This document shows, in pieces, positions 14,636-49,111 of a stretch of DNA of 51,638 bases. The notes beneath the pieces are model-generated. The model saw nothing but the letters and a program-made list of their open reading frames with translations, did no database searches and was not told the origin of the DNA. The stretch comes from Streptacidiphilus anmyonensis (GTDB lineage: Bacteria > Actinomycetota > Actinomycetes > Streptomycetales > Streptomycetaceae). Location: contig NZ_BBPQ01000042.1 of assembly GCF_000787855.1 (NCBI RefSeq), forward strand, positions 1 to 51,638. The letters run 5' to 3'. Position numbers and translations under genes: made by a program. Each line of letters starts with the position of its first letter. Position 1 is the first letter of the stretch.

Positions 14636-16997
<2,362 letters not shown>

Positions 16998-45455: not shown

Positions 45456-45983
45456 GTGCCGAAGCCGCTGAGCCTCTCCTTCGACCCCATCGAACGCGCC
45501 GACGAACTGTGGGCGCGGCGCTGGGGCGCGGTGCCGTCCATGGCGGCGATCACCTCGGTGATGCGGGCACAGCAGATCCTGCTGGCGCAGGTCGACGCGG
45601 TGGTCAAGCCGTACAAGCTGACCTTCGCCCGCTACGAGGCGCTGGTGCTGCTCACCTTCAGTCAGGCCGGCGAGCTGCCGCTGTCCAAGATCGGCCAGCG
45701 GCTGATGGTCCACCCGACCAGTGTCACCAACACCGTCGACCGCCTGGAGGCGGCCGGGCTGGTCGCGCGTCGCCCGAACCCGCTGGACGGCCGCGGCGTC
45801 CTGGCGGCCATCACGCCCAAGGGCCGCGACGTCGTCGAGGCCGCCACCCGGGACCTGATGGCCATGGACTTCGGCCTGACCGGCTACGACGCGGAGGGCT
45901 GCAAGCAGCTCTTCGAAATGCTGCGGCCGCTGCGGATAGCCGCCGGCGACTTCGAGGACGCGGAAGAGTCCGGGGCGGTGTGA
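45456..45983 (+). CDS. MarR-family transcriptional regulator
   Basis: The 175-aa winged-helix protein has KPYKLTFARYEALVLLTFSQAGELPLSKIGQRLMVHPTSVTNTVDRLEAAGLV with the wing RRPNPLDGRGVLAAITPKG. The dimer helices are at both ends. TACGGT (45444-45449) ends 6 nt before GTG 45456, a leaderless arrangement. It lies between two DUF3817 genes and may control them. Ligand unknown. Confidence 0.9.
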   Translation: MPKPLSLSFDPIERADELWARRWGAVPSMAAITSVMRAQQILLAQVDAVVKPYKLTFARYEALVLLTFSQAGELPLSKIGQRLMVHPTSVTNTVDRLEAAGLVARRPNPLDGRGVLAAITPKGRDVVEAATRDLMAMDFGLTGYDAEGCKQLFEMLRPLRIAAGDFEDAEESGAV

Positions 45984-46017
45984 GAGATCGACTTTTGTCG
46001 GTCTACTCTCGATGACT

Positions 46018-46365
46018 ATGAACAAGTCCAACCCCACCTCCCTGCTCACGGCCTACCGTGCACTGGCGTACGTGACCGGCGTGGGCCTGGTCCTGCTCTG
46101 CGTCGCCTGCATCGCCCACTACGGTTTCGGCGCGTCGGCGACGCCCGTGATGATCGTGGGCACCCTGCACGGCTGGCTGTACATGGCCTACGTCGTGGTC
46201 GCCTTCGTCCTCGGCATGAAGCTCGAATGGCCGATGGGCAAGATCATCTGGACGGTCCTCGCCGGGACCATCCCCACCGCCGTCTTCTTCGTCGAGCGCC
46301 GCGTCGTGCGGGAGATGAAGGAGCAGATCGCCGCCCAGGAGCAGGAGCAACTGGTCGGCGCCTGA
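46018..46365 (+). CDS. DUF3817 membrane protein (second copy)
   Basis: The 115-aa protein has three hydrophobic segments: ALAYVTGVGLVLLCVACIAHYGF, MIVGTLHGWLYMAYVVVAFVLG and IIWTVLAGTIPTAVFFVERRV. It shares the GTLHGWLY and PxxxFxxER motifs with the copy at 45104 but differs strongly elsewhere. TACTCT (46004-46009) ends 8 nt before ATG 46018; ATG 46012 in the same frame is an alternative. The upstream GATCGAC/GTCGGTC half-sites could be an operator of the neighbouring MarR. Confidence 0.86.
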   Translation: MNKSNPTSLLTAYRALAYVTGVGLVLLCVACIAHYGFGASATPVMIVGTLHGWLYMAYVVVAFVLGMKLEWPMGKIIWTVLAGTIPTAVFFVERRVVREMKEQIAAQEQEQLVGA

Positions 46366-46414: not shown

Positions 46415-46438
46415 TTGTGCGTCATGTCTCCATCGACA

Positions 46439-46488
46439 GGTAGTAGGACGTCCGAGTAAATTGAGGTACTAGGACGTCCGAATATCTT
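46439..46488 (+). promoter_or_regulatory. icmA promoter with two 20-bp direct repeats
   Basis: GGTAgTAGGACGTCCGAgTA (46439-46458) and GGTAcTAGGACGTCCGAaTA (46465-46484) differ at two bases, and each contains the palindrome GGACGTCC. TTGAGG (46461-46466) and TATCTT (46483-46488) with a 16-bp spacer frame the second copy. This is a typical repressor arrangement. Confidence 0.7.
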
Positions 46489-46529: not shown

Positions 46530-48233
46530 ATGGACGCACAGCAGACCGACGCCGCCCGGGAGCGGTGGCAGCAGCGCTACGACCGCGCCCGCAAGCGCGA
46601 CGCCGACTTCACCACGCTCTCCGGTGACGAGGTCGAGCCCGCGTACGGCCCGCCGGCCGGCACGACCTACCCCGGATTCGAGGACATCGGCTGGCCCGGT
46701 GAGTTCCCGTTCACCCGCGGCCTCTACCCGACCGGCTACCGCGGCCGCACCTGGACCATCCGCCAGTTCGCCGGCTTCGGCAACGCCGAGCAGACCAACG
46801 AGCGCTACCGGATGATCCTGGACGCGGGCGGCGGCGGCCTCTCCGTCGCCTTCGACATGCCGACGCTGATGGGCCGCGACTCCGACGATCCGCGCTCGCT
46901 CGGCGAGGTCGGCCACTGCGGCGTCGCGATCGACTCCGCCGCCGACATGGAGGTGCTCTTCCGCGGCCTGCCGCTGGCGGACGTCACCACCTCGATGACC
47001 ATCTCCGGCCCGGCCGTCCCGGTCTTCTGCATGTACCTCGTCGCCGCCGAGCGCCAGGGCGTCGACCCGGGCGTGCTCAACGGCACGCTCCAGACGGACA
47101 TCTTCAAGGAGTACATCGCGCAGAAGGAGTGGCTCTTCGCCCCCGAGCCGCACCTGCGCCTGATCGGCGACCTGATGGAGTACTGCGCCGCCAACATCCC
47201 GGCGTACAAGCCCCTTTCGGTCTCCGGCTACCACATCCGCGAGGCCGGTGCGACGGCCGCGCAGGAGCTGGCCTTCACCCTCGCCGACGGCTTCGCCTAC
47301 GTCGAGCTCGGCCTCTCGCGCGGGCTGGACGTGGACGTCTTCGCGCCGGGCCTCTCCTTCTTCTTCGACGCCCACCTGGACTTCTTCGAGGAGATCGCCA
47401 AGTTCCGCGCCGCGCGCCGGATCTGGGCCAAGCGCCTGCGCGACGTCTACGGCGCCAAGACCGAGAAGGCGCAGTGGCTGCGCTTCCACACCCAGACGGC
47501 GGGCGTCTCGCTGACCGCGCAGCAGCCCTACAACAACGTGGTGCGCACCGCGGTCGAGGCCCTGTCGGCCGTGCTGGGCGGCACCAACTCCCTGCACACC
47601 AACGCCCTCGACGAGACCCTCGCGCTGCCCAGCGAGCAGGCGGCGGAGATCGCGCTGCGCACGCAGCAGGTGCTGATGGAGGAGACGGGCGTCGCCAACG
47701 TCGCCGACCCGCTGGGCGGCTCCTGGTACGTCGAAGCGCTGACCGACCGGATCGAGGCCCAGGCCGAGGCGATCTTCAGCAAGATCCTGGACATGGGCGC
47801 GGTGGCCGTCGGCGCGGGCAAGCAGCACCCGATCGGCCCGATGACCTCCGGCATCCTGCGCGGCATCGAGAACGGCTGGTTCACCGGCGAGACCGCGGAG
47901 GCGGCCTTCCAGTACCAGACCGCGCTGGAGAAGGACGAGAAGCGCGTCGTCGGCGTCAACTGCCACACCGGCTCGGTCACCCCGCCGCTGGAGATCCTCC
48001 GGGTCAGCCACGAGGTCGAGCGGGAGCAGGTCCGCGTCCTGGCCGGCCGCAAGGCGGCCCGTGACGAGGCCGCGGTCAAGGCCGGCCTCGACGCGATGCT
48101 CGCCGCCGCGCGTGCGGGCGAGAACATGGTCCCCCCGATGCTCGACGCGGTCCGCGCGGAGGCCACCCTCGGCGAGATCTGCGACGCGCTGCGCGACGAG
48201 TGGGGCGTCTACGTGGAGCCGGCCGGCTTCTGA
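46530..48233 (+). CDS. icmA: Isobutyryl-CoA mutase large subunit
   Basis: Adenosylcobalamin-dependent rearrangement between isobutyryl-CoA and n-butyryl-CoA. The 567-aa protein is the TIM-barrel half only; the B12-binding domain is absent, so it needs a separate small subunit (IcmB), which is not in this window. Substrate choice can be read directly: Phe80 in [16 protein letters not shown] and Gln198 in [10 protein letters not shown]. Methylmalonyl-CoA mutases have Tyr and Arg at these places. [17 protein letters not shown] and [16 protein letters not shown] complete the family motifs. A paired repeat lies in its promoter and a strong hairpin follows. Confidence 0.95.
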
Positions 48234-48490: not shown

Positions 48491-49111
48491 CTAGCCTGCG
48501 GCGATCTCCGTCAGCGGGGCGAGCAGCAGGGTGGTGAAGGCGCTGATCCACTCCGCCGTGGCGGGCTCGCCGCTGACCAGCATGCGGTGGACGACCGTGC
48601 CCGCCACGGTGTCGAAGATGATGTCGACCGCTGCCGAGGCCATCTCCTCGCAGGAGTCCATGGGCAGTTCGCCGCGGGTCTGCGCGGCCGCGCGGCCGGC
48701 GATGACGAGACGTTTCTGCGGCTCGATGATGGACTCGCGCACGCGCTTGCGCAGCAGCGGGTCGCGGGTCGCCTCGGCGAAGAGCGCGAGCAGCGCGGCC
48801 TGGGTCTCCGGCGCGGACAGCAGCGCGGCGAACTGGGCGACCACGGCCTCGATGTCGGCGCGGAGGCTGCCGAGATCCGCCATCTCCAGCTCGTCCAGCT
48901 GTTCCGCGACCGCCGCGACGACGAGTTCGTTCTTCGAGGGCCAGCGCCGGTAGAGCGTCGTCTTGGCGACGCCCGCGCGCGCGGCGACGTCGCCCATGGT
49001 GAGGCCGCCCCAGCCCAGCTCCGCCAGTGCCTCGCGGGTGGCCGCGAGGATCGCGCCGTCCGCGTCGGCGTTGCGCGGGCGGCCCTTGCGGGGGCCGGAC
49101 GGTGCGGTCAC
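48491..49111 (-). CDS. TetR-family transcriptional regulator
   Basis: The 206-aa protein has the helix-turn-helix AILAATREALAELGWGGLTMGDVAARAGVAKTTLYRRWPSKNELV (residues ~20-65), preceded by a basic start PRKGRPRN. The C-terminal ligand domain is all-helical (TetR C-terminal type seen in AcrR-like proteins). It starts at GTG 49111 with AAGGAG upstream. The divergent gap to the next gene holds a TetR-like palindrome. Ligand unknown. Confidence 0.92.
   Translation of the reverse strand: MTAPSGPRKGRPRNADADGAILAATREALAELGWGGLTMGDVAARAGVAKTTLYRRWPSKNELVVAAVAEQLDELEMADLGSLRADIEAVVAQFAALLSAPETQAALLALFAEATRDPLLRKRVRESIIEPQKRLVIAGRAAAQTRGELPMDSCEEMASAAVDIIFDTVAGTVVHRMLVSGEPATAEWISAFTTLLLAPLTEIAAG

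Follow-up and report, generated by a model that had tools for sequence, protein, structure and literature searches.

A palindromic operator-like element upstream of icmA in Streptacidiphilus anmyonensis and a MarR-family candidate for its regulator

Two copies of a 20-bp sequence lie just upstream of icmA in Streptacidiphilus anmyonensis, raising the questions of whether they form a regulatory element, which genes share it, and which protein might read it. We analyzed the whole 51,638-nucleotide stretch of contig NZ_BBPQ01000042.1 (hereafter the window) together with related genomes. The identical 20-mer GGTANTAGGACGTCCGANTA matched exactly on the forward strand at 46439–46458 and 46465–46484, confirming the two copies 26 bp apart described in the first-pass annotation; this start-to-start distance amounts to about 2.5 turns. 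In 100 dinucleotide-preserving shuffles of the window, matches with up to three mismatches averaged 0.01, the largest number being 1. The 18-bp palindrome TAnTnGGACGTCCnAnTA lies inside each 20-mer. The symmetric core proposed earlier was thus present but longer than claimed, with symmetry extending over 18 bp in each window copy and 24 bp in many relatives. We refer to the two copies as O1 and O2 (Table 1). Downstream of them lies the gene that we take to be icmA, a name resting on the first-pass annotation and on ICM signature residues.

Table 1 Features of the icmA locus and of related loci.
Feature	Position	Strand	Evidence or remark
MarR-family regulator, Sco5413 orthologue, proposed owner of the operators, 1 kb upstream	45456..45983	+	PF01047, PDB 4b8x, co-occurrence, linkage
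Membrane-type DUF3817 protein, encoded between marR and icmA	46012..46365	+	PF12823; Streptomyces-type loci
-35 element TCGACA, conserved icmA promoter	46433..46438	+	TCGACA in 49/66 icmA loci with site
O1, 18-bp palindrome TAGTAGGACGTCCGAGTA in the -35/-10 spacer	46441..46458	.	24-bp frame 46438–46461
-10 element TAAATT, conserved icmA promoter	46457..46462	+	TAAATT in 52/66 icmA loci with site
O2, 18-bp palindrome TACTAGGACGTCCGAATA covering the predicted transcription start	46467..46484	.	24-bp frame 46464–46487
icmA, isobutyryl-CoA mutase large subunit (methylmalonyl-CoA mutase family), regulated gene	46530..48233	+	TIGR00641, 649.7 bits
TetR-family gene, convergent with icmA, rival regulator	48491..49111	-	PF00440 + PF16859
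Loci with CTTAGCGATCGTTCAG upstream of icmA	L088, L089, L093–L096, L100, L103, L106–L108, L110

We built a weight matrix from 48 Streptomyces-type icmA sites (16 of them distinct). The two window copies scored 33.4 and 25.3 bits, with the next window position at 3.6. A background of 154,560 positions, taken from most of the window and 25 site-less loci, gave no score as high as 6 bits. Counting as a site any score of at least 6 bits in the 250 bp upstream, we examined the best 80 of 589 icmA relatives, all from named genomes. Sixty-six of these 80 loci carried a site, and 25 of the 80 contained the perfect 24-bp palindrome ATTTACTAGGACGTCCTAGTAAAT. The exact motif was found in 71 of the 81 genomes of the window's family, compared with one of 81 for the reversed control. 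On comparative sequence grounds, these results indicate that the repeats are a real, regulatory, operator-like element upstream of icmA. Separately, we observed the near-palindrome CTTAGCGATCGTTCAG (up to four mismatches) 36–77 nt upstream of icmA in 12 of the 14 site-less loci and in none of the 66 loci with a site, suggesting that another regulator acts there.

We then considered how the copies sit on the promoter. The spacing TCGACA-18-TAAATT (46433–46462) was the sole promoter-like match on either strand between 46300 and 46700; its spacer is occupied by O1, and the start predicted from its -10 element falls within O2. Of the 66 icmA loci with a site, 48 had it within a TCGACA-18-TAAATT spacer. 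The -10 element stopped 6 or 7 nt short of the start codon in 44 of them, so that a leaderless transcript would be expected. The first-pass annotation had instead placed the second copy within a TTGAGG/TATCTT promoter. That pair does exist, at 46461 and 46483, 16 bp apart with O2 between; relatives, however, share TCGACA-18-TAAATT with the first copy in its spacer, and we therefore rejected TTGAGG/TATCTT as the conserved promoter. It may be a weak second promoter.

Two further suggestions, cooperative binding and sensing of the B12 state, found no support. Most icmA relatives have a single strong site, and where sites occur in tandem the spacing is mostly 21 or 26 bp, with 15, 27 and, in one weak pair, 33 bp also seen. 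Helical phase is therefore not fixed, which leaves a fixed cooperative geometry unsupported. We rejected a B12 riboswitch at icmA, as the window gave two Rfam matches at the gathering score, neither of them RF00174; they were a che1 sRNA (RF02935, 50751–50847) and an actinobacterial L31 ribosomal protein leader (RF03158, 2878–2922). A cobalamin riboswitch (RF00174) does occur at mmsA, where it starts at or within about 30 nt after the operator in five of five family loci, suggesting that B12 acts on this one target through a separate device. Such mmsA leaders (L162:4027–4233 and L287–L291) carry two signals each. A cobalamin riboswitch has already been noted for mmsA of S. griseus (PMC8914203).

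Next, we asked which other genes carry the site. Within the window's family, sites also lay before icmF and mmsA and between serA and leuB-ilvE. In a class-wide sample, a slightly relaxed pattern matched 116 of 296 genomes, with 11 for the control. From the matches listed, we examined the 63 sites that lay outside the window's family and had not been covered before; the matches of family f68 and most of those of the window's own family are among those standing outside this list. The motif was not randomly distributed: exact copies of the 12-mer TAGGACGTCCGA and of the 18-bp palindrome TANTNGGACGTCCNANTA occurred in the S. anmyonensis genome (9.39 Mb in 153 contigs) at O1 and O2 only, and 61 of the 63 listed non-family sites stood directly upstream of a few gene types, namely icmA (28), icmF (17), mmsA (12), acyl-CoA dehydrogenase (3) and ilvE (1). 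Each gene start was extrapolated from a known protein, and the 61 sites preceded it by -10 to 121 nt. The other two were at an HpcH/HpaI-type lyase (L376) and between Crp-like and endonuclease-III-like frames, named by eye (L378). In a phylum-wide sample, a more relaxed pattern matched 23 of 198 genomes against 10 of 198 for the reversed control, which places this pattern near the noise level.

As a test of prediction, the icmA-trained matrix was run on the 600 bp upstream of bkdA and mmsA. All 27 best-match family loci of bkdA scored at least 5.5 bits, the copies being weaker ones (two of 29 genomes had no bkdA match), and so did all five loci of true mmsA (at least 81% identity). None of 25 mmsA paralogues reached 0 bits, nor did either of two second bkdA copies, and in 200 trials of symmetric column permutation at most seven of the 27 bkdA loci reached 0. 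A matrix trained on icmA alone thus predicts bkdA and true mmsA and not the paralogues, indicating that the motif marks genes of branched-chain amino acid breakdown. The NCBIfam name for the bkdA product is pyruvate dehydrogenase E1 alpha; we took it to be of the branched-chain type, a name not settled, because its operon adjoins a response regulator gene, as in the S. coelicolor SCO3815–3818 cluster. Judged from these genes, the set of sites is a predicted regulon for the catabolism of branched-chain amino acids (valine and related) in many actinobacteria. The earlier proposal that the repeats serve a regulator of short-chain acyl-CoA metabolism as its operator is likewise supported by the conservation and by the genes that carry the site. 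At serA-leuB, the site lies, by eye, upstream of a promoter-like pair and not inside it; control there may therefore differ, and pure repression fails to explain it. After the serA-leuB site, a conserved small frame (about 30–55 amino acids, core RALDRRD, mostly ALQRALDRRDNGG) was seen in 19 of 20 family loci examined (G000:C106 after 47350, in L226 and L254), and it keeps its place where leuB is 7 kb away.

The gene 1 kb upstream of icmA encodes a candidate for the protein that reads the site. Its product belongs to the MarR family (PF01047, 48 bits vs a cut-off of 24.6) and matches the fold of PDB 4b8x, with an E-value of 2.4e-73 over 144 residues and 78% identity in the structural match. 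We consider it the orthologue of Sco5413 on the basis of this high identity and of a shared MarR–DUF3817–icmA neighbourhood in Streptomyces-type loci; the DUF3817 gene was absent from loci outside these. Operators of MarR proteins are palindromes of about 16–20 bp that lie close to the genes they control and often overlap the promoter. An 18–24-bp palindrome in the -35/-10 spacer fits an operator of this type, and its ownership by the MarR protein is what we infer from the following counts and linkage.

The MarR gene was in the locus in 63 of the 66 icmA loci with a site, compared with none of the 14 without. Of the three exceptions, one is a contig cut (L058), and Jiangella and Phytoactinopolyspora carry the MarR gene elsewhere, unlinked to icmA. 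In a genome-wide count over 21 chosen genomes outside Streptomycetaceae, the gene was present in all nine with an icmA site and in none of the 12 without, the site-less L094 and L095 lying outside this count. In the phylum sample it occurred in 34 of 198 genomes, including every one of the 12 that carried the exact motif. Of the 23 genomes matching the relaxed motif, 16 had the gene; in the seven that lacked it, the matches were rich in A and T, and none lay close to any of 13 panel genes. All these co-occurrence counts come from related genomes, which are not independent trials and whose relatedness inflates the counts. The stronger evidence for a MarR link is its spread over several families with changing neighbour genes: in several families the MarR gene adjoins icmA, icmF or the mmsA operon, and in seven loci the site lies between divergent marR and icmF. 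We covered 17 wide MarR regions outside the family, with seven further MarR genomes left aside; six of the 17 had no site of at least 6 bits, including one in which the mmsA promoter is cut off (L224). No autoregulatory site was seen at the MarR gene in the window, where the scores above 0 bits were O1, O2 and one at 16704. In four loci of family f3 (L209, L210, L224 and L225), a small cluster that includes an aminotransferase gene lies next to the MarR gene, near the mmsA operon; by eye, this cluster also holds ketosynthase-III-like and thiamine-diphosphate-enzyme-like genes.

We also compared the MarR candidate with known systems. Regulators of the MftR/PecS group (UrtR/PecS type) respond to urate and are marked by an extra N-terminal helix and by their ligand residues; BkdR is an Lrp-type regulator; and in proteobacteria the branched-chain amino acid catabolism regulons of LiuR and LiuQ are governed by MerR and TetR proteins, not MarR proteins. 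MftR and PecS with operator DNA (PDB 8ylg, 8yli) were the closest DNA-bound folds to the window protein, at 21–28% identity, and the structure model of the window protein has a helix ahead of the core ones. The 4b8x crystal chain aligns from residue 25 of the window protein, so that the N-terminal stretch bearing the invariant residues F9, D10, P11, I12, R14, A15 and W19 (12 sequences), modelled as a helix over residues 11–23, is missing from it. The conserved N-terminal segment lies at 45456–45530 in the window, and the SCO5413 start has possibly been annotated too late. The MarR protein SCO3205 binds a pseudopalindrome as a dimer, with the consensus TTnAAnnnTCAA (PMC3737563). The most diverged site that we found, TACTTTGATGTCAAACTA (L221), has TTGA/TCAA halves like those of the SCO3205 operators. 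The half-site (GGA/TCC) and the gene set are different. In its proposed role, the MarR candidate resembles BkdR (SCO3832), which controls branched-chain amino acid breakdown in Streptomyces (PMC8176718). For Sco5413 itself, the 4b8x paper describes the protein in its title as 'of unknown function', and NdgR, a protein that binds genes for the synthesis of branched-chain amino acids, has a ChIP-seq peak at SCO5413 (PMC4340878). In the open-access literature searched, we found no operator, regulon or ligand for Sco5413, no regulator of icmA or valine degradation, and no match to the motif letters (RegPrecise and most subscription papers lay outside the search).

Other owners of the motif were weighed against the MarR protein. 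An unlinked regulator, such as ScfR, Lrp/BkdR or another factor, might bind the motif, with the MarR gene linked through the shared pathway only. Two loci (L159 and L162) have an ScfR-type gene next to mmsA, and the Streptomyces branched-chain dehydrogenase complex is under BkdR control (PMC8176718). ScfR lies beside the site in those two loci only, however, for which reason we rejected it as the owner; the valine-degradation genes of S. albus responded little to a bkdR deletion (PMC8176718); and it is the MarR gene that tracks the site through neighbour changes among icmA, icmF and mmsA. We regard an unlinked owner as unlikely. It is still less probable that the sites belong to the convergent TetR-family protein as a repressor of icmA. 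Its gene is adjacent, occurs in the 3-kb flanks of 47 of the 66 icmA loci with a site, and has a counterpart at 47% identity beside icmA in G164. Yet the 3 kb on either side of icmA lacked it in seven site loci outside Streptomycetaceae (L098, L102, L104, L105, L109, L111 and L112) and in twelve Streptomyces loci, some on short contigs, and it was not beside icmF or mmsA in the MarR regions. On these counts in the flanks of icmA, it was rejected as owner of the motif. The acyl-CoA TetR regulators AccR, PccD and PaaR, which govern short-chain acyl-CoA supply for antibiotics and so share related physiology, belong to another protein family and were rejected as owners, an origin we give almost no weight, since the window sites do not fit their different published motifs (GTTAA-N6-TTAAC, T/ATGACGG/CTGT/CTGT/A and AACGA-N4-TCGGT, respectively; review PMC10933834). 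A chance or functionless mobile repeat is contradicted by the shuffles, the conservation, the gene set and the paralogue controls, and is extremely improbable.

Together, the conserved sites, the genes that carry them, the way they sit on the promoter, and the co-occurrence and linkage with the MarR gene make it probable that O1 and O2 are operators of the upstream MarR-family regulator, the Sco5413 orthologue, which would repress icmA until a pathway ligand releases it. A MarR dimer on O1, between the -35 and -10 elements, would block RNA polymerase at the icmA promoter, and O2 over the predicted start would provide a second, added block. Breakdown of branched-chain amino acids would then yield an intermediate that releases the MarR protein and opens the promoter; this ligand might be a short branched acyl-CoA, such as isobutyryl-CoA, or a keto acid with a branched chain. 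A broader reading seems to us possible, though we would not yet favour it. The operator may have changed little across classes while the genes carrying it changed (icmA, icmF, mmsA, acyl-CoA dehydrogenase, bkdA and ilvE); a branched acyl-CoA may be sensed through the N-terminal helix absent from the crystal chain; the serA-leuB microprotein may also be controlled and may link breakdown to synthesis; and CTTAGCGATCGTTCAG at icmA in another lineage may reflect a change of regulator.

Isobutyryl-CoA mutase and the valine pathway supply acyl-CoA precursors for polyketide antibiotics. If the MarR assignment is true, Sco5413, whose structure is solved, would gain an exact operator and a testable gene set, and the assignment would explain why bkdR deletion alters valine-degradation genes so little (PMC8176718). 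The motif yields regulon predictions across many actinobacteria, and the regulator, if correctly assigned, would offer a single handle on precursor supply, through its deletion or through the 24-bp operator.
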